In this document: positions 9,126 to 35,479 of the stretch, piece after piece
How positions within the stretch are numbered: position 1 is the first letter of the stretch
Layout of the letters: the number at the start of each line of letters is the position of its first letter
Source of the DNA: a virus
Virus record (IMG/VR): IMGVR_UViG_3300025646_000007
Coordinates: 1-35,479 of that record
DNA length: 35,479 nt
Strand: one strand, 5' to 3'
Program-made: the position numbers and the translations under genes
The notes under the pieces: model-generated
The model's input: only the letters and a program-made list of their open reading frames with translations
Told to the model about the DNA's origin: nothing
Database searches by the model: none

Positions 9126-9422
9126 TTATTTTGCAACAGCCGCCAGCACCTCTGGCAGGAAGCCGTGATCCGGCCCGTGCGCCTCGCGCCAGGCTCGCTT
9201 GTCTGCGTGCAGAAGCTGGTGGTGATCGCGGCAGAGCGGGATCGTCTCGGCGTCTGGCGATCGCCGCTGGCCGTAGCGGTCGTGGATGCAGTGATGGACC
9301 TCGACCGGCCATCGGCCGCAGATCACGCAAGGCAACTGCGCGACCCGCGCCATGTGGTCTGGGTCGCGCTTGGCCTTCTCAGGCTTCAAGCCGAGCGGGC
9401 GCGGGTGAACGATCCTGCTCAA
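9126..9422 (-). CDS. HNH-type nuclease (DUF968/Ref-like)
   Basis: A 98-residue protein with the zinc/HNH arrangement CVICG (C32, C35), VHHC (H43, H44), PLCRDHHQLLH (C64, H67, H68, H72) and a typical HGPDHGF ending. This matches the DUF968/Ref-like family of phage nucleases linked to recombination functions. The preferred start is TTG at 9422 with GGAG upstream, giving a 44-base overlap with ninB; an internal ATG at 9353 would remove basic residues that precede the first zinc knuckle. Its neighbours are recombination genes. Confidence 0.82.
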   Translation of the reverse strand: MSRIVHPRPLGLKPEKAKRDPDHMARVAQLPCVICGRWPVEVHHCIHDRYGQRRSPDAETIPLCRDHHQLLHADKRAWREAHGPDHGFLPEVLAAVAK

Positions 9423-9786
9423 AGGTCACTCCGTGGCGGGCGCCGTATTCGAGGATGTATTCGATCAGCAGCGACATCTGCGGCTTCGATAGCTTCGATG
9501 ATCGGAAGCCGAGCGGGAAGGGGCCGGTGCCATCCAGCCCCTCCGCGAATTGCACCTGATGACCGAGAGCGTGCATGAACGCGGCTTTCCACGTCTCGGG
9601 CGGCCACTGTCGCCCCTCGGGCCGAGCGCGGCTGATGTCGGTCAACAAGGCCCACATCAGGGCGTTCTGCTCGAGGGTGCGATCACCCGCCTTCACCGTG
9701 ACCATCGCATAGTCGGGCGCGGCGTCGATCAGGCGCTTAGCATAGGTGCGCTGCGTCGGGCCGGTGAGGCGGATGGTGTAGGTCAC
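9379..9786 (-). CDS. ninB: NinB-family recombination protein
   Basis: A 135-residue protein started by GTG at 9786 (GTGA overlap with the upstream gene). It shows the NinB signature: RTLEQNALMWALLTDIS near residues 36-52, then WPPETWKAAFMHALG and a C-terminal YILEYGARHGVTF helix. NinB (lambda Orf family) binds single-stranded DNA and helps RecA/annealase-type recombination. It sits with ERF, YqaJ and HNH proteins, giving a coherent recombination set. Confidence 0.88.
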   Translation of the reverse strand: MTYTIRLTGPTQRTYAKRLIDAAPDYAMVTVKAGDRTLEQNALMWALLTDISRARPEGRQWPPETWKAAFMHALGHQVQFAEGLDGTGPFPLGFRSSKLSKPQMSLLIEYILEYGARHGVTFEQDRSPAPARLEA

Positions 9787-10010
9787 CGCAGCGGCTCGCA
9801 ACGGATCAGGTCGGCAAGGTCTAGGATCGCCTGCACCGCGATCATTTCCTCGTTGCCTTCGTCGACTTCGAACAAGATATACACCTTGCCGTCTGCATCC
9901 TTGCGGATGCCGCGGATGGCGTCCCCGGCCTCGATCGCGTCGAGGATGCTTGTGCAAGCTGCCTCTGCCCAGAGCGCGCGCTCGGCGATGTGCTGGTCGA
10001 TCTCAATCAT
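9783..10010 (-). CDS. Small acidic hypothetical protein
   Basis: A 75-residue protein with ATG 10010 just inside the end of the GapR-like gene and a stop overlapping ninB. It is acidic, with the order helix (DQHIAERALWAEAACTSILD), strand (KVYILFEVDE), helix. No family recognised. Tight coupling to recombination genes suggests a role in the same process. Confidence 0.65.
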   Translation of the reverse strand: MIEIDQHIAERALWAEAACTSILDAIEAGDAIRGIRKDADGKVYILFEVDEGNEEMIAVQAILDLADLIRCEPLR

Positions 10011-10505: not shown

Positions 10506-10757
10506 TCAGAAAGGGATTTCATCGTCGAGACCGGCCGGCATCGCCGGTCGGTCAGCGGGGCCGGGATAGCCTGCATCCTCGCGCGGCTTGGCCTCGCTCA
10601 TCAGTAGCTGCACGCGGTTCTCCTTGTCCGGCAGCGGCAGCGCATCGAAGACGAGCGAGAACCCGCCCTTGTCGCGCGGGAAGGCCGCCCCAACCTTGAG
10701 CCACCGCGTCTTGCCGTCCTTGCTCTGCCTCGGGCTGAGTAGATCGTATCTCGTCAC
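10506..10757 (-). CDS. SSB-like small protein with DDEIPF tail
   Basis: An 83-residue protein started by GTG at 10757 (GTGA overlap; GGGAGG upstream). An N-terminal beta region (RYDLLSPRQSKDGKTRWLKV, GGFSLVFDALPLP) is followed by a flexible stretch and the exact acidic-hydrophobic end DDEIPF. That end resembles the C-terminal tip of bacterial SSB, which recruits host repair proteins. Comparable small proteins accompany exonuclease/annealase pairs in other phages. I infer single-strand DNA binding or SSB-mimicry; the canonical OB-fold is not demonstrable by eye. Confidence 0.62.
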   Translation of the reverse strand: MTRYDLLSPRQSKDGKTRWLKVGAAFPRDKGGFSLVFDALPLPDKENRVQLLMSEAKPREDAGYPGPADRPAMPAGLDDEIPF

Positions 10758-11359
10758 TTGAGCCTCCCTAGCTTGTCCATCATCTCGTCCAACTCGCCGA
10801 GGAACTTGGTCACCTCGGCCTCCAGATCCGCGATCAGGGTCTCATCCCGATCCACGCGCTTGACCCACATCTCCAGATCGACCGGCAGACGCGGGTCGAA
10901 GCTGACGAAATCACACCACTTGCGACCCGTGCAGGCCATCTGCCACTGCATCTGCAAGGCATAGTTCCCCGGCACCGATCCCTTGATGAGGTAGTCGATG
11001 TGGGTCGCCGTGTTCGGGCACTTGATCTCGATCAGCCCATCTTCGCCCACGAGGCCGTCAGGCGAGGCACCAGCGGCCATGTCGTCGCGGGCGATGAAGC
11101 CCACCTCGACGACCGAGGCGCCCGTCAGCAGCTCGTATGCGGCCCGCGCGCGCGGCTCGGTGTCGGTCCCGTGCTGCATGGCCTTCGAGGTGAAACCCTC
11201 GGCGCGCTGGCCGGTCAGTCGCTCGCAGGCCAACTCGGCCATGTAGTTCGCCCTGCCTGCGCCGTAGCCGGTCTTCGTCTTGGCGACGACATCGGCGATG
11301 CGGCTGGCGGTGACACGGCCCAAGCGGGCCGCGAACCACTCCTCTGTGCGCTGCTCCAT
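10754..11359 (-). CDS. YqaJ/lambda-Exo-type recombination exonuclease
   Basis: A 201-residue protein beginning one base after the ERF stop. It has the family's opening EEWFAARLGRVTASRIADVV, GTDTEPRARAAYE (E68), the catalytic ASPDG...GLIEIKC (D101, E111, K113) and QMQWQMACTG. It should degrade the 5' strand from double-stranded DNA ends to give 3' tails for the ERF annealase. Length and motifs look intact. Confidence 0.92.
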   Translation of the reverse strand: MEQRTEEWFAARLGRVTASRIADVVAKTKTGYGAGRANYMAELACERLTGQRAEGFTSKAMQHGTDTEPRARAAYELLTGASVVEVGFIARDDMAAGASPDGLVGEDGLIEIKCPNTATHIDYLIKGSVPGNYALQMQWQMACTGRKWCDFVSFDPRLPVDLEMWVKRVDRDETLIADLEAEVTKFLGELDEMMDKLGRLK

Positions 11360-11360
11360 C

Positions 11361-11930
11361 TCAGCGCGCCTTCTTGCGGAGAAGCGCCAGCACATGCTCC
11401 GCGCCGGATGCGTCGAGATCGTGAAGGGCCTGCACCTTCATGTAGGCGCACAGCTTCTCCTCGTTCGCCTCGGTCTGTTCGATCAGCGCGGTGATCTCGT
11501 CGAACTGCTCGACCGACATGGGCTTCTTCGGCTCGTCCTTCGGCGGCGCCTTCGCTGCGGCGTTGCCGTCGTCGTCCTCAGGCGCGATCCCGGTGAGGCT
11601 CTCAAGGCCAATGCGCTTAGCATAGGTCGTCGCCGACTTCATACCCTGCATGTCGTTCTTCGCCACGATCAGCGGCACGTCGCAGTGGATCTGCGTTTCC
11701 GTCGCGCCATGCGTAAGCGTCGTCCGCATCGTCATGCCGTATTCGTCGCGGATCATGCTGTGATGCAGCGCGATCCCCTGCTCGCTGAGCGCGGGCACCG
11801 CGACCGACACCACGTCGGCCAGATCGGCATACCGGCTCTTGAACGCCGGGTTCACCGATCCCTTCGTGACGCGCCCCATGTTTGCCTGCGCGGCGCACAG
11901 AGCGGCGTAGATGTTCTTGTGGTCGCTCAT
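11361..11930 (-). CDS. erf: ERF-family single-strand annealing protein
   Basis: A 189-residue protein with GGAGG ahead of ATG 11930, the first gene of the leftward operon. ERF features: IYAALCAAQANMGRVTKG, an NPAFKSRYADLADV loop, then MKSATTYAKRIGLESLTGI and the acidic EDDDGN at about 118-123. An Ala/Pro/Lys linker and a separate C-terminal helical domain follow. It anneals complementary single strands in partnership with the exonuclease downstream, and may recircularise or multimerise phage DNA. Confidence 0.92.
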   Translation of the reverse strand: MSDHKNIYAALCAAQANMGRVTKGSVNPAFKSRYADLADVVSVAVPALSEQGIALHHSMIRDEYGMTMRTTLTHGATETQIHCDVPLIVAKNDMQGMKSATTYAKRIGLESLTGIAPEDDDGNAAAKAPPKDEPKKPMSVEQFDEITALIEQTEANEEKLCAYMKVQALHDLDASGAEHVLALLRKKAR

Positions 11931-11950
11931 GTCGTCCTCCGTTGTTTTTG

Positions 11951-11991
11951 GTTCTGGCACTCTAAACCGCTTTGTGCGATAGTGCCAGCAC
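11951..11991. promoter_or_regulatory. Divergent control region with inverted-repeat operator
   Basis: Left arm GTTCTGGCACTCT (11951-11963) and right arm ATAGTGCCAGCAC (11979-11991) are inverted copies matching at 11 of 13 positions, with a 15-base spacer. They lie between the divergent ERF and Cro-like genes. Loose -10-like hexamers adjoin or fall in the arms in both directions (TAGAGT leftward, GATAGT rightward). A dimeric repressor, plausibly the adjacent 56-residue HTH protein, may bind here and switch the two operons. Promoter positions are weakly supported. Confidence 0.6.
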
Positions 11992-12009
11992 AAAATGATA
12001 GGAGAGACC

Positions 12010-12180
12010 ATGCTCACGCTCGAAGAAATCAGCACCCGGCTCCAGGACCGCAACCTCTGTCGTGTATCCGAGGCGACCGGGATCAACCGCAACACGCTCG
12101 GCCAGATCAAGGCGGGCAAGGTGAAAAACGTCTACCTTTCAACCATCTTGACGCTCTCCGACTATCTGAGGGGCGAATGA
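12010..12180 (+). CDS. Small Cro-like helix-turn-helix regulator
   Basis: A 56-residue protein using ATG 12010 with AGGAGAG upstream. Almost all of it is one HTH domain: LQDRNLCRVSEATGINRNTL then GQIKAGKVKN and a C-terminal helix STILTLSDYL. Size and place beside a divergent promoter and inverted repeat fit a Cro-type repressor. No larger CI-like partner is present in the genome, which argues against a lysogeny switch of lambda type. Confidence 0.8.
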   Translation: MLTLEEISTRLQDRNLCRVSEATGINRNTLGQIKAGKVKNVYLSTILTLSDYLRGE

Positions 12181-12181
12181 T

Positions 12182-12442
12182 GTGGGGCCATGTCGGGTCT
12201 GCAAGCGGCCGGGCTGCTGGGGATACTCGCAGCCGGGGCCAGCTTCGCAGCGAAGCAGAGGCGGCTATGTCTGGGCCTGCTCTGAGCATCGAGGCGAGGT
12301 CGAGCGAGATTGGGCACTTGCGTTTCCGACGCGAGCGCCTGATCGATCTCGGCAACCGCGCGAGGATGCTGCGGCAACGCAAGCGGGCGGCGATCATCGA
12401 CGCGAGCCTGCGGGCGGTAACGATGGAGATCCTCAGACATGA
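12182..12442 (+). CDS. Cys-rich small protein, frame probably broken or shifted at about 12320
   Basis: The frame starting at GTG 12182 gives 86 residues. Its first half looks genuine: CRVCKRPGCWG and WACSEHRGEVE form a Cys/His zinc-binding pattern with good codon use. After about 12320 this frame turns into low-quality Arg/Pro/Ala sequence, while the frame one base further reads well as RRERLIDLGNRARMLRQRKR. Joining the two at the TTTC of 12323-12326 would give a smooth protein of about 90 residues. Either a +1 shift occurs, a base is wrong, or two genes overlap. The formal stop overlaps the next ATG (ATGA), which supports this frame being used. Confidence 0.5.
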   Translation: MGPCRVCKRPGCWGYSQPGPASQRSRGGYVWACSEHRGEVERDWALAFPTRAPDRSRQPREDAAATQAGGDHRREPAGGNDGDPQT

Positions 12443-12455
12443 GACGCGCGGCTAA
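12267..12455 (+). CDS. Overlapping frame: basic helical C-terminal part or separate 62-residue protein
   Basis: From ATG 12267 (AGAGG upstream) this frame encodes 62 residues whose last 45 are highly basic and helical (LRQRKRAAIIDASLRAVTME) with strong G/C third positions. It may be the true C-terminal half of the Cys-rich protein starting at 12182, reached by a frame change, or an independent overlapping gene. It runs 17 bases into the next gene. Confidence 0.4.
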   Translation: MSGPALSIEARSSEIGHLRFRRERLIDLGNRARMLRQRKRAAIIDASLRAVTMEILRHETRG

Positions 12456-12738
12456 GGTAGACGCCAATCAACGCTACATTGTCGAGGCGCTCAGAGCGCT
12501 CGGCGCGAGCGTCGAGTTGCTCCACGCCGTCGGCAAAGGCTGCCCTGATCTCCTCGTCGGCTATGGCGGCGTCAATTACCTGCTCGAGGTCAAGGACGGA
12601 TCGAAGGTGCCCTCGGCGCAGAAGCTGACCGAGGATCAGGTGATCTGGCACGAGCGATGGCGCGGGCGCGCTGCGGTCGTGAACAACGTGCAGGCGGCGC
12701 TTCAGGCGATCGGTGCGCTACGAGGGACGATCTCATAA
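12439..12738 (+). CDS. VRR-NUC / PD-(D/E)XK nuclease
   Basis: A 99-residue nuclease. The core is VGKGCPDLLVGYGG (D37) followed by YLLEVKDG (E50, K52), the PD-(D/E)XK signature of the VRR-NUC superfamily, then KLTEDQVIWHERWRG with a Gln typical of the third motif. Small phage VRR-NUC proteins are thought to act as structure-specific endonucleases, for example on Holliday junctions or replication forks. It fits with the nearby recombination and replication genes. Confidence 0.85.
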   Translation: MRRAAKVDANQRYIVEALRALGASVELLHAVGKGCPDLLVGYGGVNYLLEVKDGSKVPSAQKLTEDQVIWHERWRGRAAVVNNVQAALQAIGALRGTIS

Positions 12739-12764
12739 AAAAGCCCCCGGCCGAAGCCGAGGGC
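12737..12764 (-). terminator. Intrinsic terminator reading leftward
   Basis: GCCCCCGGC (12743-12751), loop CGAA, GCCGAGGGC (12756-12764): a nine-pair stem with one mismatch. Six A residues precede it on the plus strand, so on the minus strand the stem is followed by TTTTTT, a textbook rho-independent terminator. No minus-strand gene lies to its right, so it would stop antisense transcripts before they enter the control region at 11951-11991. Confidence 0.75.
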
Positions 12765-12792
12765 AGTTGGTGCAACAGGGAGGACTTGCAAG

Positions 12793-13041
12793 ATGAAGAT
12801 ACCCACCGACGAGGCAGGCCGCAAGGCCCATCTCCAGGCTCTGCTCGAGGACTTCGAGGCGATCTACGGCGTGCCGCTTCGAGGCCACCCTCGGCGGCGC
12901 AGCGACAAGATCATGCGCGGGCGCTGGCACTACGTCCGCACGGCTATGCTCGACGGCTTTACCCGGCCCGAGATCACCGAGGCGCTGGGCGTCGATTTTA
13001 CAACCGTCTACAGGCTTTCACGCATCGACGAGATGTGTTAA
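12793..13041 (+). CDS. Small HTH protein, possible DNA-replication accessory
   Basis: An 82-residue protein with GGAGG upstream of ATG 12793. The N-terminal half is a helix (LQALLEDFEAIYGVPL) and a basic loop (RGHPRRRSDKIMRGRWHYV); the C-terminal half is an HTH (FTRPEITEALGVDFTTVYRL). The basic-loop-plus-HTH order is reminiscent of the DnaA DNA-binding domain, but the DnaA signature is not present. Placement before the DUF1376 gene suggests a role in replication control. Confidence 0.68.
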   Translation: MKIPTDEAGRKAHLQALLEDFEAIYGVPLRGHPRRRSDKIMRGRWHYVRTAMLDGFTRPEITEALGVDFTTVYRLSRIDEMC

Positions 13042-13048
13042 AGAAGAC

Positions 13049-13080
13049 GGGCGGGGAGCGCGCCAACGCTCGACCCGCCC
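13049..13080 (+). other. Strong RNA hairpin before the micro-ORF and DUF1376 gene
   Basis: GGGCGGG (13049-13055) pairs with CCCGCCC (13074-13080), with an inner stem AGCG/CGCT (57-60 with 67-70) and a CGCCAA loop. No T-run follows, so it is not a standard terminator. It may stabilise the mRNA end or modulate expression of the downstream replication gene. Confidence 0.5.
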
Positions 13081-13104
13081 AGAGCAGCGATCGGAGGTCG
13101 CCAC

Positions 13105-13155
13105 ATGTCGAAGATATATCACGACCCGTTTGCGCCATGCAAGGTGCCGCGATGA
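13105..13155 (+). CDS. 16-residue leader-type micro-ORF
   Basis: ATG 13105 follows a strong CGGAGG at good spacing and encodes 16 residues (MSKIYHDPFAPCKVPR) whose TGA overlaps the ATG of the DUF1376 gene (ATGA at 13152-13155). The DUF1376 start has no clear site of its own, so this micro-ORF may deliver ribosomes by coupling. A biological role for the peptide itself is doubtful. Confidence 0.4.
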   Translation: MSKIYHDPFAPCKVPR

Positions 13156-14072
13156 GTGGCGGCCCGTTCATAGCCTTCTACCCATCCGACTGGCTGGGCG
13201 GGACGAGGATGCTTAGCGCGCTGGAGACAGGCGTCTACATCACGCTTGTTGCGATGATGTATGAGGCAGAAGGCCCGATCCAGATGCCGCACGATAGGCT
13301 CGCCAGATCCTGCGGAACGACGCTGCCAACGTTCCGAAAGGCGCTCGAGACGCTGATTGAAAACCACAAGATCATCATGCTGGAGGCAGGCCTCTGGAAC
13401 GATAGGGTCGAAAGAGAGCTGAAGAAGCGAGAACAAAAGCGAGAGAGCGCGAAAGTATCAGCGAACCACAGATGGCAAAAAACTGAACAAAAACAAAGCG
13501 AGCATGATGCGAACGCACTGCGACCGCAATACGATGGCAATGCTAACCATAACCATAACCATAGCCAGATAGATACCAATGCTAACGCATTGGACGGCGA
13601 TGCCGTCACGGCTGCACTTTGGGATAGAGGAGTGAGGTTCCTTGTGGCTCACGGCTCGTCTGAGAGGCAGGCTCGGAGCGTCATCGGGAAGTGGCGAAAG
13701 GACGCAGGCGATCAGGAGATCTACGACGCCTTCGCAGCCTGTAAGCGGGAGGGCATCGTCGACCCGATCCCGTGGATCACTGCAAGCCTTGCCAAGCCAA
13801 AAGTTGACCTTCAGAAAATCATGCAGGAGATGATCGATGAACTTACATCAGGCGGACCTGACCAGACGGATGACCGAGTTCCTCAGCAGGAGGACGGCGC
13901 CGAAGACGATCGCTGGCAACGCAGAGGCGCAGAAGGCGGAGATAGCTTCGCTCGTCCGCGCCGTGATGAGGCACGCGCCCCGAGACAACTTGCAGACGTG
14001 GTGGCAGGAGTTCGAGGACGCGCTGCTCGCTCGTATGAAGACGCACGGCTGGCCGATCCAGAGCGAAATTGA
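13152..14072 (+). CDS. DUF1376 replication-initiator-like protein
   Basis: A 306-residue frame. The N-terminal ~90 residues are a DUF1376 winged-helix domain (FIAFYPSDWLGGTRMLSALE, LARSCGTTLPTFRKALETLI). An Arg/Lys/Glu helix and an Asn/His-rich linker (NHNHNHSQIDTNAN) follow, then a second domain (LVAHGSSERQARSVIGKW). DUF1376 proteins lie where phages encode replication initiators and are thought to bind the origin. The last 79 residues overlap the next gene by 236 bases and look out of phase, so the functional protein probably ends near residue 228. An AT-rich repeat zone inside the linker-coding part is a possible origin. Confidence 0.82.
   Translation: MSGGPFIAFYPSDWLGGTRMLSALETGVYITLVAMMYEAEGPIQMPHDRLARSCGTTLPTFRKALETLIENHKIIMLEAGLWNDRVERELKKREQKRESAKVSANHRWQKTEQKQSEHDANALRPQYDGNANHNHNHSQIDTNANALDGDAVTAALWDRGVRFLVAHGSSERQARSVIGKWRKDAGDQEIYDAFAACKREGIVDPIPWITASLAKPKVDLQKIMQEMIDELTSGGPDQTDDRVPQQEDGAEDDRWQRRGAEGGDSFARPRRDEARAPRQLADVVAGVRGRAARSYEDARLADPERN
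13539..13593. other. Candidate replication origin inside the DUF1376 gene
   Basis: The segment holds AATGCTAAC twice (13539-13547 and 13578-13586), three tandem hexamers CCATAA/CCATAA/CCATAG (13547-13564), and a perfect inverted repeat CCAATGC-TAAC-GCATTGG (13576-13593). An A-rich stretch lies just upstream (13479-13498). Short repeats plus AT-rich DNA within an initiator gene parallel the lambda origin inside gene O. This is inference by analogy. Confidence 0.4.
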
Positions 14073-14403
14073 CGCAGCCGCGAAAGCGATCCGTCGCGAA
14101 GGCACCTCTAATCCGCTTCGCAACCTCGACCTCGCTACCGACTATGCTAGGACGCATGGCAAGCCGCTGCCGTGGGCGAACACGCCCGAATACACCTACC
14201 ACCTGACGCAGATGGGCGTTCTTGGCTCGCTTCGAGAGGCGCGGTTTAAGGGCTTCGCTCTCAACCCCGAGCAGAACCGCATCGCGATAGATCAGCCCAT
14301 CGGCGACGAGGAGTTCGAGCATCACTGCGAGGTCATGGCTCGGCTTCGCGGCGTGGACATCTTCGATGTTCGCATGACCGAAGCCAAGATGCTGGGGAGA
14401 TAA
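13837..14403 (+). CDS. Conserved hypothetical, replication region
   Basis: A 188-residue protein whose first 236 bases overlap the DUF1376 frame; codon use shows this is the real frame there. Its predicted structure is mostly helical (EIASLVRAVMRHAPRDNLQT, EFEDALLARMKTHGWP), with an internal AAAKAIRREG and a C-terminal ARFKGFALNPEQNR segment. No enzyme motif or Walker box is visible, so it is not a helicase loader of the DnaC type. Its position suggests a partner of the DUF1376 protein. Confidence 0.7.
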   Translation: MNLHQADLTRRMTEFLSRRTAPKTIAGNAEAQKAEIASLVRAVMRHAPRDNLQTWWQEFEDALLARMKTHGWPIQSEIDAAAKAIRREGTSNPLRNLDLATDYARTHGKPLPWANTPEYTYHLTQMGVLGSLREARFKGFALNPEQNRIAIDQPIGDEEFEHHCEVMARLRGVDIFDVRMTEAKMLGR

Positions 14404-14404
14404 G

Positions 14405-14776
14405 ATGCTCGCCTTCATCTCATCGCCCTACTCCCACCCGGATGGAACGACGCAGGACGCCCGCGCGCTCGCTGCTGGTGACTTCGCCGCATGGCTCTGG
14501 CGCAAGGGCATCATCATGCCCATCTCCCCGATCGCCCACTGGCACGAGATCGGGCAGCGCAACCACCTCCCCGGAAACGCGATGGCATGGCTTGAGTGGA
14601 ACAAGACTGTCCTCAAGAAGTCGGACATGCTATATGTGCTTTGCCTCCCTGGCTGGCGCGATAGTCAAGGTGTAGCCTACGAGATACAATGGAGCATCGA
14701 TGCCGAGATCCCGATCTTCTACGCAGTCCCCAGCGGAGCCACCTACGATGTCAGTATCCATCCCCCTGGCGTTTGA
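14405..14776 (+). CDS. DUF1937 nucleoside deoxyribosyltransferase-like protein
   Basis: A 123-residue protein with the DUF1937 layout: FISSPYSHPDG at the start, a helix (DARALAAGDFAAWLWRKG), PISPIAHWHEIG, then SDMLYVLCLPGWRDSQGVAYEI with the Asp/Glu pattern of the nucleoside 2-deoxyribosyltransferase fold. The family is expected to act on the N-glycosidic bond of (deoxy)nucleosides, but substrates are untested. It begins the cassette that continues with ParB-like and two methyltransferase genes, and overlaps the ParB-like gene by 29 bases. Confidence 0.82.
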   Translation: MLAFISSPYSHPDGTTQDARALAAGDFAAWLWRKGIIMPISPIAHWHEIGQRNHLPGNAMAWLEWNKTVLKKSDMLYVLCLPGWRDSQGVAYEIQWSIDAEIPIFYAVPSGATYDVSIHPPGV

Positions 14777-15257
14777 GACGTGGCCGATCGATCGCCTGAT
14801 CGAATACGCGCGCAACCCGCGCAAGAACGACCACGCCGTGGATCGCGTCGCAGCGGCCATCCGCGAGTTCGGATTTCGCGTGCCCATTGTAGCCAAGAGC
14901 GACGGGCTGGTGGTCGACGGGCATCTGCGCCTCAAGGCAGCGAAGAAGCTGGGCCTTGCCGAGGTGCCGGTGATCCTCGCCGACGACATGACCGACGCGC
15001 AGGTCAAGGCCTTTCGCCTCTCGGTGAACAAGACCGCAGAACTCGCCGAGTGGGACGACGAGTTGCTCGCCCTCGAGTTTGACGACCTCCGCCAGATGGG
15101 CTTCGACCTCGACGTGATAGGCTTCGACGCAGACGAGATCGCGTTGCTTCAGAATGGGCCTGCGAGTGAGATAGATGCGCCAGAGGATTTCAAGGAAGCA
15201 GACGAGTCAGACCTTACACACACGTGCCCAAAATGCGGGTTTGAGTTTGATGACTAG
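14748..15257 (+). CDS. ParB-like nuclease-domain protein with zinc knuckle
   Basis: A 169-residue protein. Residues 10-100 are a ParB/sulfiredoxin domain: YARNPRKNDHAVDRVAAAIR, GFRVPIVAKSDGLVVDGHLR, AAKKLGLAEVPVILADD. The end CPKCGFEF is a CxxC zinc knuckle or half of one. In many phages this domain is fused to, or sits beside, DNA methyltransferases; here it overlaps the cytosine methyltransferase by eight bases. The DGHLR motif matches the family's nucleotide-binding GHRR-type box. It may assist modification or have nuclease/CTPase-type activity, but this is untested. Confidence 0.82.
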   Translation: MSVSIPLAFETWPIDRLIEYARNPRKNDHAVDRVAAAIREFGFRVPIVAKSDGLVVDGHLRLKAAKKLGLAEVPVILADDMTDAQVKAFRLSVNKTAELAEWDDELLALEFDDLRQMGFDLDVIGFDADEIALLQNGPASEIDAPEDFKEADESDLTHTCPKCGFEFDD

Positions 15258-16323
15258 CTACTCGATCCCGAGCGTTGTATCGCTTCGCGAGCAGACGGAG
15301 AACGGCAACCACAAGTTTGAAGTCGTGTCGCTTTTTGCGGGGGGCGGTGGATCTTCGACAGGCTATAGAATGGCCGGCGGAAAGGTCCTTGCTGTTAACG
15401 AGTTTATTTCGGAAGCCGTTAAAACCTACGCTGCAAACTGGCCCACAACTAAGATCTTGCCCGGCGACATCCGAAAACTATCCGGGCAAGAGATCCTCGA
15501 TCTCATTGGCAAAAAACAAGGCGAACTCGACATCCTAGACGGCTCTCCTCCGTGCTCTGCGTTCTCGACAGCCGGCAGTCGAGAGAAGGGATGGGGCAAG
15601 TCGAAGAAATACTCCGATGCATCACAAGAGAACGTCGAGGATCTTTTTTTCGAATATATTCGAATCTTACGAGATCTGATGCCGAAAGTCTTCGTCGCTG
15701 AAAACGTCAGCGGCTTGGCTAAAGGCGTCGCCAAGGGGTATCTTAACCAAATCCTGCGAGATCTTCGAGCGTCGGGCTATTGCGTCGAGTGTAAGGTGCT
15801 AGATGCTCAGTGGCTAGGTGTTCCGCAGAAGCGGGCGCGGACGATCTTCGTTGGTATACGCTCCGACCTATGGAAGGCAAATATGACAAAAAAGCTGCAT
15901 CCCAAGCCAAGCGATAGCAGGCCAACGTTAGAACAAGCGTTTGCGGATCTTATTATGACGCAACAAGATAAAGCAGAAAGCAACATTGAAAAATATTCAA
16001 TATTTAAATTGCTTAAAAACTTAAAACCAGGAGAGCAACATAAAAAAAGATTTAATCTTGTTAAATCAAGACGAGATAGTGTCGCAAACTGTATTACTGC
16101 AACATGCGGAAATCCTGGCGCTGCAAAGGTATGTCATTGGGATAATCGAGCGTTTACGGTTTCAGAAATTAAACGAATTATGTCTGTGCCAGATGATTAT
16201 ATTTTAACAGGTAGCTATCAACAAAGAGTTGAACGTCTTGGAAGAATGGTCGCACCCTTCATGATGAAGGCTGTAGCTGAAAACATACTCGCGTTAGGAG
16301 TTCTAAATGCAGATGCCAGATGA
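15250..16323 (+). CDS. C5-cytosine DNA methyltransferase
   Basis: A 357-residue protein with the ordered motifs of m5C methyltransferases: I (SLFAGGGGSSTGY, residues 27-39), IV (SPPCSAFSTAG, catalytic C102), VI (ENV, 151-153), VIII (QKRAR, 193-197), a target-recognition region about 205-285, IX (RRDSVANCITA) and X (GRMVAPFMMKAVAENI). It transfers methyl from SAM to cytosine in DNA, probably to protect phage DNA from restriction. ATG 15250 overlaps the ParB-like stop. Bases from about 15940 to 16250 are very AT-rich (31 G/C in 120 bases at 15961-16080), unlike the neighbours, suggesting recent transfer. Confidence 0.93.
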   Translation: MTSYSIPSVVSLREQTENGNHKFEVVSLFAGGGGSSTGYRMAGGKVLAVNEFISEAVKTYAANWPTTKILPGDIRKLSGQEILDLIGKKQGELDILDGSPPCSAFSTAGSREKGWGKSKKYSDASQENVEDLFFEYIRILRDLMPKVFVAENVSGLAKGVAKGYLNQILRDLRASGYCVECKVLDAQWLGVPQKRARTIFVGIRSDLWKANMTKKLHPKPSDSRPTLEQAFADLIMTQQDKAESNIEKYSIFKLLKNLKPGEQHKKRFNLVKSRRDSVANCITATCGNPGAAKVCHWDNRAFTVSEIKRIMSVPDDYILTGSYQQRVERLGRMVAPFMMKAVAENILALGVLNADAR

Positions 16324-16966
16324 AGGTCGATGGACCTTTCAAAGCAGGGACGTAGCAAGCGGGTTTGACAACCATGTGCGCGAGCAGCTTCCTTGGTATG
16401 ATCTCGCGACGAGCGCGGTCGAACATATCGCCCGTCACTACATCCCCGAGCGTGGCCTAGTCTACGACATAGGAGCGTCGACAGGTAACGTAGGGCGAGC
16501 GATCGCGCCTATACTCGAAGCAAGATCGGCGCGATTGATCGCCGTCGAGAAGGCGCCAGAGATGGCAGAGAAATACCAAGCGCCGGGCGAGATCGTCATT
16601 CGTGACGCAACGAGTATCGACTTCGAGCCGTTCGACTTTGGGGTGTTGTTCCTGAGCACAATATTCATGCCGCCACATGTCAGGGGGCAGTTTCTATCTC
16701 GGTTTGTCGACGCTCTAAGGCCGGGGGGCGCAGTGGTCATGGTCGAGCGTATGCAGGCAGGATCTGGCTACACATCGACGATCATGGCAAGGCTTACCTT
16801 GGCGAACAAGCTAAGAGCAGGAGCGACGCCAGAGGATGTGGTGGCAAAAGAACTAAGCCTAAGCGGGGTGCAACGACCACTCGCCGCGGCAGAGTTGCCA
16901 GACGGAGCAATAGAGTTCTTTCGAGTAGGTGACTTTGCGGGGTGGATCGTTGAGGCTAAGATGTAA
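16307..16966 (+). CDS. Class I SAM-dependent methyltransferase (CmoA-like family)
   Basis: A 219-residue protein with AGGAG ahead of ATG 16307, overlapping the C5-methyltransferase stop by 17 bases. SAM-binding motif I is VYDIGASTGNVG (52-63) with the acidic E81 after the second strand. The opening GFDNHVREQLPWYDL and the late KELSLSGVQRPL and FRVGDFAGW resemble the CmoA-like group. CmoA makes carboxy-SAM for tRNA wobble modification; in the phage the substrate could be nucleotide, DNA or tRNA. Codon use returns to the genome norm. It closes the modification cassette. Confidence 0.8.
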   Translation: MQMPDEGRWTFQSRDVASGFDNHVREQLPWYDLATSAVEHIARHYIPERGLVYDIGASTGNVGRAIAPILEARSARLIAVEKAPEMAEKYQAPGEIVIRDATSIDFEPFDFGVLFLSTIFMPPHVRGQFLSRFVDALRPGGAVVMVERMQAGSGYTSTIMARLTLANKLRAGATPEDVVAKELSLSGVQRPLAAAELPDGAIEFFRVGDFAGWIVEAKM

Positions 16967-17008
16967 CCTATATGTAGATCGAGCAGTGGAACACCGAGAG
17001 GCAGCACC

Positions 17009-17446
17009 ATGGCAACCCGCGTCCTGACCGACGACGAGCGCGTCCAGCTTGAGGCGCTCGCTCAGTATCTCACGCAAGACCAGATCGCCGATTATCTCGG
17101 CATCAGCCGGCCTACGCTCGCCGCGATCTTCGAGCGCGACGAGGAAGCCGGTTTGCGGTATAAAAAGGGGAAGGCGCGAGCGATCGGTGTCATCGCATCG
17201 AACCTGATGAACAAGGCGCGCGACGGCGACATCGCGTGCATGATCTTCTTCCTCAAGACGCAGGCAGGCTGGCGCGAGACCAACCGCCACGAGATCACCG
17301 GCGCAGACGGCGGTGCGATCAAGATCACCCAGGAGATAACCGATGATCTTCGACAAGCACTTGATGCTCTCGCTGCAAAAATCTCCGGCAGCGATCGCGA
17401 GGACGAAGTGGCTTTCGCAAGCCCGATCCAACCAGATAACCCCTAA
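17009..17446 (+). CDS. Terminase small subunit-like protein
   Basis: A 145-residue protein directly before the large terminase. The N-terminal HTH (LTQDQIADYLGISRPTLAAI) would recognise the packaging site, and the central MIFFLKTQAGWRETNRHE is typical of small terminases. Its last third overlaps the large-subunit gene by 104 bases. It recruits the large subunit to phage DNA. cos or pac mode cannot be told from the sequence. Confidence 0.85.
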   Translation: MATRVLTDDERVQLEALAQYLTQDQIADYLGISRPTLAAIFERDEEAGLRYKKGKARAIGVIASNLMNKARDGDIACMIFFLKTQAGWRETNRHEITGADGGAIKITQEITDDLRQALDALAAKISGSDREDEVAFASPIQPDNP

Positions 17447-18581
17447 GGGCGACTGGCGCGCGTGGCTCGTCCTCGCAGGGCGTGGCTTTGGCAAGACCCG
17501 CACAGGCGCTGAGGATGTCGCTTGGTATGCCGCGTGTAACCCAGGCCATCAAATCGCCGTCGTGGCGCCGACGTTCAACGACGTGCGCGGCACATGCTTC
17601 GAGGGCGTCTCAGGGCTGATGGCCTGCATCCCGCATGAGAGCATCGCTGAATACAACCGCAGCCGGCAGGAGATCCGGCTCGCCAACGGCGCGCTGATCC
17701 GCGGCTTCTCCGCAGACACGCCTGATCGTCTGCGCGGGCCGCAGTTCCATCGAGCGTGGTGCGACGAATTGGCAGCCTGGACCTATCCCGAGGCGTTCGA
17801 TCAACTAGCGTTCGGGCTTCGCCTCGGCGAGAACCCGCAGCTTGTGGCGACGACGACGCCTCGCCCGACGAAGGTGATCCGTGACTTGCTCAATGGCCTC
17901 GGCACGATTGTCACGCGCGGTTCGACATTCGACAACGCGGCCAACCTGGCGCCGACCGCGCTCGCTGCTCTGCGCGACAAATACGAGGGCACCCGCCTCG
18001 GCCGGCAGGAGTTGTTCGCCGAGATCCTCGAGGACATCGACGGCGCGATTTGGACGCGCGAGATGATCCTGCGCGGGCAAGCGCCGCAGATGCAGCGGAT
18101 CGTCGTTGGTGTCGATCCGTCAGGCGGCGGCGACGAGATCGGCATCGTCGTAGCAGGCAAGGGCATCGATGGGCGCTTCTACATCCTCGAGGATGCGTCG
18201 TGCAGCCTCGGCCCGGCTGGCTGGGGCCGGATGGTCATCGAGCGCTACCACCACCACAAGGCCGACAAGATCGTGGCCGAGCGCAACTTCGGCGGGGACA
18301 TGGTCGAGAGCATCATCAAGACCTCGGATCGCTTCGCCAACGTCGAGATGGTCACCGCATCGAAGGGCAAGGCAGTCCGCGCCGAGCCGATCGCCGCTCT
18401 CTACGAGCAGGGCCGAGTGACGCACGCAGCGCAGATGCCGCGGCTTGAGGATCAGATGATGCAGATGACGGCGCAGGGCTTCATGGGCGACGGATCGCCC
18501 GACCGGCTCGATGCGATGGTCTGGGCCTTGACGGATCTTGCCTTCTCGACCACTGGCCGGCCTAACATCCGCGCCCTATAG
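17343..18581 (+). CDS. terL: Terminase large subunit
   Basis: A 412-residue packaging motor. The ATPase has Walker A GRGFGKT (46-52) after GDWRAWLVLA, and Walker B with D141-E142 (AWCDELAAW). The RNase-H-like nuclease has GVDPSGGGDEIGI (D258), AERNFGG (E313) and SPDRLDA (D390). The sequence resembles terminases of gene-transfer-agent and HK97-like phages of Alphaproteobacteria. ATG 17343 has AGGAG at good spacing, so the 104-base overlap with the small subunit is likely real. Confidence 0.95.
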   Translation: MIFDKHLMLSLQKSPAAIARTKWLSQARSNQITPKGDWRAWLVLAGRGFGKTRTGAEDVAWYAACNPGHQIAVVAPTFNDVRGTCFEGVSGLMACIPHESIAEYNRSRQEIRLANGALIRGFSADTPDRLRGPQFHRAWCDELAAWTYPEAFDQLAFGLRLGENPQLVATTTPRPTKVIRDLLNGLGTIVTRGSTFDNAANLAPTALAALRDKYEGTRLGRQELFAEILEDIDGAIWTREMILRGQAPQMQRIVVGVDPSGGGDEIGIVVAGKGIDGRFYILEDASCSLGPAGWGRMVIERYHHHKADKIVAERNFGGDMVESIIKTSDRFANVEMVTASKGKAVRAEPIAALYEQGRVTHAAQMPRLEDQMMQMTAQGFMGDGSPDRLDAMVWALTDLAFSTTGRPNIRAL

Positions 18582-18597
18582 CACGAGGGGGCGTGAT

Positions 18598-18642
18598 ATG
18601 CTACTTTGCCTCAGCGCAGTCTTGCAAGGACGCTTGCGATGA
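18598..18642 (+). CDS. 14-residue leader-type micro-ORF before portal
   Basis: ATG 18598, with GAGGGGG upstream, encodes MLLCLSAVLQGRLR and stops in an ATGA overlap with the portal start at 18639. Like the micro-ORF at 13105, it may only serve to load ribosomes on the downstream gene. AAGGA before the portal ATG also exists, so this is weakly supported. Confidence 0.25.
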   Translation: MLLCLSAVLQGRLR

Positions 18643-20147
18643 TCTTCTCCCGCCTATTCCGGCGCGACGCCGTGAAGGAAAGCGCCGTAGGTGGCGCGCT
18701 TGTGATGAACCCAGGCCAAGCCGCTTGGTCTGATCGCGACTACAAGCAATTCGCCGACGAAGCCTATCGCAAGAACGTGATCGCGTTTCAGGCGATCAAC
18801 AAGATCGCGGACGCCGTGGCTTCGATCCGCTGGACGATCTTCCGCGGCGAAACGGAGTTGATCGAGCATCCGCTGCTGCAACTGATCGAGAACCCCAACC
18901 CGATGCAGTCGGGCGCCAGCTACATGCGGGCCAAGGTGTCCTATCTCCTGATCGCCGGGAACGGCTACGAGGAGCGGGTCGTCGTCGGTGGGCAGCCGCG
19001 CGAACTCTACCAGCTTCGCCCTGACCGCATGAAGGTGATCCCCGGCCCGTCGGGCTATCCGCAGTCCTACATCTACACCGCGAATAACCAGAAGGTGACG
19101 TTCCCCGTCGATCCGCAGACGCTCGACAGCGACGTGCGCCACCTGAAGATGTTCAACCCGAGCCACGACTGGTATGGCCTCAGCCCGGTCGAGGCGGCGT
19201 CCTACGCAATCGACCAGCACAACGAGGCGATGGCGTGGATGCAGGCGCTCTTGCAGAACTCCGCGCGGCCATCCGGGGCATTGACCACCAAAGACGGGCA
19301 GGAGTTGTCGAGCGACAACTTCAACCGGCTCAAGGCGCAGATCGAGGAGCAGTATGCCGGCGCCCGCAACGCCGGTCGTCCGATGCTGCTCGAGGGCGGC
19401 CTAAGCTGGGAGCAGATGGGCCTCTCGCCTGCCGACATGGGCGTCATCGAGGCGAAGTCCTCCTCGGCTCGCGACATCGCGCTCGCGTTCGGCGTGCCTC
19501 CTCAGCTTCTCGGCATCCCCGGCGACAACACCTACTCCAACTATCAAGAGGCACGCCTAGCCTTCTGGGAGGACACGATCGTCCCACTCGTGGACATGAT
19601 CGCGGGCGACTGGAACGCATGGCTTGGCGAGTCCTTTGGCGTCGAACTGCGCCCGGACATGGACCAGGTGCCGGCGATCGTCGACAAGCGCATGGCGCTC
19701 TGGCAGATGGCTGACGCTTCGAAGGATCTGACGATCAACGAGCGCCGCGCCATGAAGGGCTACGAGCCGACCGATGGCGGCGATGTGCTGCTCGTGCCGT
19801 CCACCGAGATCAGCCTGAGCATGGCGGGCATGGGCTTCGAGGGCGACATCTCGTCGCCAACTGATGCGGGCGTGCCGACAGCGGGGGCCGATGTGCAAGA
19901 GACGGCGCTCAACGGCGCGCAGCTATCGTCGCTCCAGCAGATCATCCAAGCCGTCGCCGACGGCATGTTGCCGGCCGAGAGCGCGATCGGCCTCATCATG
20001 GTCGGCTTCCCGAGGCTCGACCGGGCCACTGTCGAGCGCCTGGTCCGCCCGGCCTCTTCCTTCACGCCTAGCGGAACATCGCAAGACATGAAGGCGCTGG
20101 CCTATGGCTTGGAGGCGGCCAATGGCAAGACGCCTGCTCGATCGTAA
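18639..20147 (+). CDS. Portal protein (HK97 family)
   Basis: A 502-residue protein forming the dodecameric ring at the packaging vertex. HK97-type portal landmarks: YRKNVIAFQAINKIADAVAS near the N-terminus, LLQLIENPNPMQSGASYM, GYEERVVVGGQPRELYQLRP, HDWYGLSPVEAA, LQNSARPSGAL, FGVPPQLLGIPGDNTYSNY and ARLAFWEDTIVPL. The C-terminal ~100 residues are variable. ATG 18639 is chosen over an upstream TTG because of AAGGA and homologous starts. It overlaps the next gene by 26 bases. Confidence 0.94.
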   Translation: MIFSRLFRRDAVKESAVGGALVMNPGQAAWSDRDYKQFADEAYRKNVIAFQAINKIADAVASIRWTIFRGETELIEHPLLQLIENPNPMQSGASYMRAKVSYLLIAGNGYEERVVVGGQPRELYQLRPDRMKVIPGPSGYPQSYIYTANNQKVTFPVDPQTLDSDVRHLKMFNPSHDWYGLSPVEAASYAIDQHNEAMAWMQALLQNSARPSGALTTKDGQELSSDNFNRLKAQIEEQYAGARNAGRPMLLEGGLSWEQMGLSPADMGVIEAKSSSARDIALAFGVPPQLLGIPGDNTYSNYQEARLAFWEDTIVPLVDMIAGDWNAWLGESFGVELRPDMDQVPAIVDKRMALWQMADASKDLTINERRAMKGYEPTDGGDVLLVPSTEISLSMAGMGFEGDISSPTDAGVPTAGADVQETALNGAQLSSLQQIIQAVADGMLPAESAIGLIMVGFPRLDRATVERLVRPASSFTPSGTSQDMKALAYGLEAANGKTPARS

Positions 20148-34968: not shown

Positions 34969-35406
34969 ATGGCTACTTTCAACAAGGTGAATGACTTCGT
35001 GGTGAATGCCGTTCACAACATGGACCTCGAAAGCGATCAGATCGTCGTCGCTCTCAGCAACACGGCGCCCGGCTCGGAGTCGAGCAACCCGACCGCCGAC
35101 GGCAACGGCGTCCTCGCGAACGTGACCGAGATCAGCTACACCAACTGCTCAAGTCGCAACGTGACGACGACATCCTCGACGCAGACGGGCGGCACCTACA
35201 AGCTGGTCCTCGCGGACATCACGCTCTCGGCCAGCGGCGGCGATGTCGGCCCGTTCCGCTATGTCTACCTCTACGATGACACCGTGACCTCGCCGGCTGA
35301 TCCGCTGATCGGCTACTACGACTACGGCCTGAGCCTGACGCTGAACGACGGCGACAGCTTCACGCTCGACTTCTCGGCGGTCAACGGCGTGATCCAGATC
35401 TCGTGA
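34969..35406 (+). CDS. Virion structural protein, beta-rich
   Basis: A 145-residue protein with AGGAG upstream of ATG 34969. It is entirely beta-type (FNKVNDFVVNAVHNMDLESD, DQIVVALSNTAPGSES, GGTYKLVLADITLSASGGDV, PFRYVYLYDDTV, GYYDYGLSLTLNDGDSF). Proteins of this pattern are found beside fibre genes in aquatic phages and are often virion components. On the circle it is followed, after a hairpin, by the tail fibre at 53. Confidence 0.75.
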   Translation: MATFNKVNDFVVNAVHNMDLESDQIVVALSNTAPGSESSNPTADGNGVLANVTEISYTNCSSRNVTTTSSTQTGGTYKLVLADITLSASGGDVGPFRYVYLYDDTVTSPADPLIGYYDYGLSLTLNDGDSFTLDFSAVNGVIQIS

Positions 35407-35479
35407 GCGGGGGCCTCGGCTCCCGCCTACCTTTTCAGCATGGAGTGACCGATGCCCACCTTTGCCAACGGCGAGAGCG
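35400..35479. repeat. Terminal direct repeat, right copy
   Basis: Identical to bases 1-80. It holds the last codons of the virion-protein gene, the hairpin (35407-35426) and the first nine codons of the tail-fibre gene (from 35452). This second start is not a separate gene; it marks where the contig wraps around. Confidence 0.95.

Follow-up and report, generated by a model that had tools for sequence, protein, structure and literature searches.

A predicted ParB-CmoX-CmoA cassette for DNA carboxymethylation, without a detected ligase, next to the terminase genes of a small phage

Which modified base, if any, would be written into DNA by four overlapping genes that lie directly upstream of the packaging genes of a virus contig? 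The window, by which we mean the whole stretch of 35,479 bases analyzed here (IMG/VR record IMGVR_UViG_3300025646_000007), has a G+C content of 61%. Its ends carry an exact direct repeat of 80 bases (positions 1-80 and 35400-35479), which suggests that it is probably a complete phage genome, circular or permuted. A megablast search of positions 12000-20000 against catalogued phages found no close relative. A first-pass annotation, made from the sequence alone, had described a modification cassette of four genes (DUF1937, ParB-like, C5-methyltransferase and CmoA-like) and proposed that together they could make a base beyond simple m5C. The coordinates of the open reading frames and domain searches bore out all four genes with their domains, and also the overlaps between them (29, 8 and 17 bases, in order). 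The cassette, encoded on the + strand, is followed by the small and large terminase subunits and then by portal, protease and capsid genes. The features are as follows.

14405..14776, + strand: DUF1937 gene (PF09152, E 3.5e-12), best seen as an overlapping passenger
14748..15257, + strand: ParB/Srx-fold accessory protein, 169 aa (phrog_620; GHxR box; CPKCG tail)
15225..15236, + strand: C160-P-K-C163 of the ParB tail (tail-motif comparison)
15250..16323, + strand: CmoX, predicted DNA cytosine-C5 carboxymethyltransferase, 357 aa (match to 8YF3)
15544..15555, + strand: SPPC catalytic motif with nucleophile C102, equivalent to SpCmoX C98 (alignment)
16243..16245, + strand: codon of R332 in motif X, equivalent to SpCmoX R350 and HhaI N304 (alignment and literature)
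16307..16966, + strand: CmoA, predicted carboxy-SAM synthase, 219 aa (TIGR00740, AlphaFold2 model, phrog_4752)
17009..17446, + strand: terminase small subunit (phrog_309, E 7.2e-19)
17343..18581, + strand: terminase large subunit (Terminase_6N/6C)

Recombination genes coding for NinB, a YqaJ-like exonuclease and ERF are found at 9379-9957, 10754-11395 and 11361-12119, on the - strand, opposite to the cassette.

The C5 enzyme and its CmoA neighbor

The C5 protein has a clear DNA_methylase domain (E 4.9e-54). Its closest solved structure is 8YF3 (E 6.1e-82 over residues 20-347), which is the CmoX of Synechococcus phage S-B43, while the next solved C5 enzyme, M.HaeIII, matches with an E value of only 3.5e-22. 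The protein is 70% identical to one of Moraxella phage Mcat8 and 48% to the S-B43 CmoX. The most telling difference from ordinary C5 enzymes is located in motif X, which has the sequence ERLGRMVAP in place of the usual G-N-x-V-P. In the alignment R332 falls at the position of SpCmoX R350 and of HhaI N304, so that the asparagine typical of m5C enzymes is replaced by an arginine. The window protein combines this arginine with an SPPC motif (S99-P-P-C102), the pair of features by which Yang et al. recognize CmoX. All six published SpCmoX residues are kept (window/SpCmoX: F29/F25, E51/E47, F52/F48, D73/D69, C102/C98 and R332/R350), and F29, E51, F52 and D73, which besides R332 correspond to the contacts of carboxy-SAM (Cx-SAM), are invariant in our alignment A1. 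In addition, the CmoA gene is not just nearby but overlaps the CmoX gene by its first 17 bases. R350 of SpCmoX makes contact with the carboxymethyl group of carboxy-SAM; the wild-type enzyme accepts only Cx-SAM and not SAM, and the R350N mutant is inactive (PMC12783734). The predicted role of R332 is thus to bind the carboxylate of this donor, and by these residues the window enzyme would belong to the CmoX family. There is an engineered parallel in M.MpeI N374K, which takes Cx-SAM (PMC12783734) and also has a basic residue in place of the motif X asparagine, although it is an artificial, CG-specific enzyme whereas the window CmoX is natural.

The assignment of the CmoA-like protein is less direct. 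It matches Methyltransf_25 (E 9.4e-7) and phrog_4752, 'tRNA methyltransferase' (CmoA) (E 3e-43), a family that also holds the assayed CmoA of S-B43. Its best NCBIfam match is TIGR00740 (Cx-SAM synthase) at 51.7 bits, below the cut-off of 193.3. However, the cut-off is not decisive, since the assayed S-B43 protein falls short of it too (115.6). Similarly, Arg199 of E. coli CmoA forms a salt bridge with the carboxylate of Cx-SAM (PMC3663124), and the position is occupied by Glu in the window protein and likewise in the active S-B43 enzyme; the preceding Lys198 is invariant across every CmoA aligned. We have therefore dropped both features as decisive tests of Cx-SAM synthesis, and file the window protein as a divergent phage type of CmoA (phrog_4752) and not as a TIGR00740 equivalog. 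An AlphaFold2 model, for which 33 viral sequences were used (pLDDT 86.9), finds its best structural matches among CmoA proteins (4GEK, 1IM8 and 4IWN, Z 24-26), with E. coli CmoA 4GEK at Z 25.6 and 2.4 A over 212 residues, and the best non-CmoA chains at Z 22.9-23.1. Altogether, the 219-aa protein is predicted to be a carboxy-SAM synthase. It shares with E. coli CmoA (TIGR00740, 4GEK) the fold and most SAM-site residues; unlike the CmoA/CmoB pathway that makes cmo5U in tRNA, the window has no CmoB, the phage proteins have Glu for Arg199, and the predicted acceptor is a DNA cytosine rather than tRNA ho5U.

Taken together, R332, the kinship with 8YF3, the six kept residues and the adjacent CmoA lead us to predict that the unit installs 5-carboxymethylcytosine (5cxmC). 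CmoA would make carboxy-SAM from SAM and prephenate; C102 of CmoX would attack C6 of cytosine while R332 holds the carboxylate of the donor, and the carboxymethyl group would be transferred to C5, giving 5cxmC in the phage DNA, where it probably blocks restriction. The ParB protein would bind NTP, associate with DNA and assist the C5 enzyme, and DUF1937 would be unrelated to carboxymethylation. We give a probability of about 87% to this reading of the cassette as a ParB-CmoX-CmoA carboxymethylation module, possibly with free 5cxmC as its end product. Family identity, active-site residues, fold, co-inheritance and the lack of a detected asparagine-synthetase-type ligase are read from sequence comparisons and models, and we infer the whole of the catalysis, carboxymethyl transfer included, as well as the base in virions, the benefit against restriction, the role of ParB and the sequence targeted. 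The suggestion of the first-pass annotation that the base goes beyond m5C thus appears sound as far as ParB and the two SAM enzymes are concerned, but on grounds other than its own, both the motif X arginine and the published CmoA-CmoX system having escaped it. It does not extend to DUF1937, which is absent from the relatives.

Natural DNA modification with 5cxmC was first shown in December 2025 (Yang et al., 2025, PMC12783734). Like the CmoA-CmoX-CmoY system of S-B43, the window has an arginine-type C5 enzyme with SPPC, the six active-site residues and an adjoining phage CmoA (23% identical to that of S-B43, a lower value than for CmoX). It differs in having a ParB gene and no detected CmoY, in gene order (ParB-CmoX-CmoA versus CmoA-CmoY-CmoX) and in genome size (35 kb versus 214 kb). 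As judged from its genes, the window is a ligase-free CmoA-CmoX member with ParB, of a system type already published.

The missing ligase and the end product

In S-B43, CmoY is an asparagine-synthetase-like ligase that adds glycine to 5cxmC, and the virion DNA contains the glycyl form only, with no free 5cxmC (PMC12783734). We searched for PF00733 and found none in the window, in Mcat8 or in three further related records, while both positive controls were found. In the clade of the window, only one locus (L018) has a CmoY gene, located between ParB and CmoX. With no CmoY detected, free 5cxmC becomes plausible as the end product and may be the final base. The broader proposal, that the clade formed by the window, Mcat8, G001, G002 and the Endozoicomonas prophages has lost the ligase and leaves free, negatively charged 5cxmC as the end product in its natural virion DNA, seems to us evenly balanced between true and false. 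The existence of ligase-free contigs was already implicit in the data of Yang et al., whose contigs held more CmoX genes (5,615) than ligases (2,251) (PMC12783734).

A variant of the carboxymethylation module with another end product would make 5cxmC an intermediate, to which an unrecognized enzyme of the phage or the host adds an amide or some other decoration. The precedent of S-B43 virions, the CmoY of L018 and the presence in the window of several genes with no annotation all speak for it. On the other hand, besides the negative PF00733 searches, a comparison of shared genes found no fourth gene common to the ligase-free phages, and we consider this variant possible rather than probable. 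If the carboxymethylation reading holds, the minimal form with three genes and no ligase might serve as a simple way of introducing carboxylates into DNA, and nature would here offer a means of asking whether phage DNA is protected by free 5cxmC on its own.

Recurrence of the three genes and the role of ParB

The first-pass annotation had proposed comparing gene neighborhoods across phages, and that comparison upheld three of its four genes. The nearest counterpart is Moraxella phage Mcat8, in which the same trio, annotated as hypothetical proteins (AKI27363-AKI27361), appears in unchanged order upstream of the terminase. Besides the CmoX identity given above, CmoA is 43% and ParB 42% identical. 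Mcat8 has no DUF1937, unlike the window, and the two genomes are otherwise unrelated except for the terminase small subunit. We have also compared the gene content of the window with that of Mcat8, two other phages from IMG/VR, a prophage locus of Endozoicomonas and three contigs. The only genes common to all of them were ParB, CmoX and CmoA, with CmoX 61-69% identical to that of the window. The three IMG/VR genomes that share the trio have G+C contents of 61% (window), 39.5% and 49%, and differ in nearly everything else; the trio was found in two Endozoicomonas genomes. The repetition of the order ParB-CmoX-CmoA in unrelated phages is more than would be expected by chance, and, being all that these phages have in common, the trio is, on this gene content, a unit that moves together. 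The predicted reach of 5cxmC is in this way extended to small phages and prophages with the cassette close to the terminase, including Mcat8 of cultured Moraxella.

The same neighborhoods bear on a simpler explanation, by which the locus is an orphan m5C methyltransferase cassette in which SAM is the donor for the C5 enzyme and the CmoA-like protein is an unrelated methyltransferase. The fold and motifs are indeed those of DNA C5-methyltransferases, and ParB is equally frequent beside ordinary asparagine-type enzymes. However, R332 takes the place of the motif X asparagine, and wild-type SpCmoX, with the same arginine, rejects SAM. Besides, a C5 survey run with an alignment led by an asparagine-type enzyme returned both types, and CmoA was present in 44 of the 45 arginine-type loci versus none of the 26 asparagine-type ones. 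When the tree sets were pooled (147 phage enzymes), CmoA stood beside 102/105 arginine-type and 0/42 asparagine-type genes. The tree of C5 enzymes is consistent with this association but offers few independent contrasts, because it requires no more than about four switches between arginine and asparagine; a sign test on these switches had one pair on supported branches and four in all, too few to be informative. With this evidence, an ordinary m5C cassette appears improbable.

Several other C5 enzymes are worth recording. In a quick tree with modest support, asparagine-type enzymes without CmoA (rows L199-L267) group inside arginine-type branches, as if some lineages had reverted from carboxymethylation to methylation. 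Motif X carries Met or Leu, with no CmoA in the fetched neighborhood, in enzymes of Flavobacterium and Cellulophaga phages and of Methylophilales phage Melnitz-3 (L092, L093 and L090), the last of which has a RimK-like ATP-grasp gene near its C5 gene. Erwinia phage pEa_SNUABM_20 (L089, 2941-5070) has an arginine-type enzyme in which SPPC is immediately followed by an in-frame, intein-like insert of about 350 aa, and its CmoA gene lies about 20 kb from the C5 gene. Staphylococcus phage vB-SscS-F1 (L095, 3980-6498) carries genes for CmoA and a CmoY-like protein, together with a divergent C5 enzyme that could not be aligned over motif X.

The ParB protein of the window matches phrog_620 (E 1.1e-49) and falls just short of the Pfam cut-off for ParB_N (E 1.1e-5). 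It has the GxxR box II of this fold, in the form GHLR, and ends in one CPKCG motif. The gene adjoins CmoX in most relatives, and Yang et al. note ParBc genes beside many CmoX genes (PMC12783734). Nevertheless, in the survey led by the asparagine-type enzyme ParB was the neighbor of 25/26 asparagine-type and 43/45 arginine-type phage C5 enzymes. The first-pass annotation had regarded a ParB gene beside a separate C5 gene as less usual, an impression that these counts contradict. By the same numbers we have rejected ParB as a factor specific to carboxymethylation; its neighborhoods indicate a general association with the C5 enzymes of phages. With ParB set apart from the motif X arginine and CmoA, a single residue and a single adjoining gene would be enough to predict genomes with 5cxmC. 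The tail follows the C5 type of enzyme: a CPxC(G) motif was found in 87 of the 92 ParBs of CmoX loci and in 13/13 of asparagine-type C5 loci (slightly internal in two), versus 0/26 ParB-domain proteins of CmoA loci without CmoX, a distribution suggestive of a function in docking or pairing.

ParB-fold proteins can bind CTP, ATP or GTP, and which of them is not predicted by the sequence (PMC12704722). An ATP-dependent enzyme that activates or derivatizes the carboxylate, in the manner of sulfiredoxin or SerK, could therefore be imagined. The AlphaFold2 model of the window protein matches ParB-N, Noc and KorB, and more weakly sulfiredoxin and the serine kinase SerK. Yet the same type of ParB with the CPxCG tail accompanies asparagine-type C5 enzymes, which make a product without a carboxylate, rendering an enzymatic ParB very unlikely.

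Finally, DUF1937 belongs to a nucleoside deoxyribosyltransferase-like family and its gene overlaps that of ParB, but a pathway of four enzymes in which it would synthesize or remove a modified nucleotide serving as precursor is barely credible, since among about 270 loci containing C5 or CmoA genes it was found only in the window phage and in one near-identical contig (L002), and carboxymethylation takes place on DNA, with no need of a free base or nucleoside step. On this distribution, and with no step for it in the carboxy-SAM pathway, DUF1937 was rejected as a pathway enzyme; its absence from the relatives leaves three genes as the conserved unit, outside of which it is best seen as a passenger.

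A second CmoA cassette

A survey with CmoA as query recovered an arginine-type C5 enzyme in 53 of 73 newly fetched loci. Many of the remaining loci had another arrangement: a ParB with a different, non-CPxCG tail, a fusion of ParB with a Methyltransf_23-like domain (about 504 aa, phrog_5475), a HAD-like protein (phrog_32036) and CmoA, usually followed by the terminase. Fusions of ParB and Methyltransf_23 as such are already known (PMC12704722), and we found no link of CmoA with them in the literature. ParB folds were the only PDB matches to the profile of the fusion enzyme, and a comparison with CmoB gave no support for a CmoB-like domain (hhalign probability 5.6%). To judge from its gene content, this second cassette, apparently unreported, could be a candidate for another carboxy-SAM-dependent modification. 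Examples are L144:2786-5354, L176:797-3377, L126:3334-6663 and Gordonia phage Evaa (L096; gp1, gp2, gp4 and gp5), with about 80 more loci in L270-L342. CmoA was present in 87 of 88 loci with the fusion protein, usually within 0.6 kb, a count that includes loci from the earlier surveys and many close relatives and that derives from a query taken from CmoA-linked loci. A separate C5 gene was found in four of the fusion loci, and in both of the two that were checked it was of the asparagine type.
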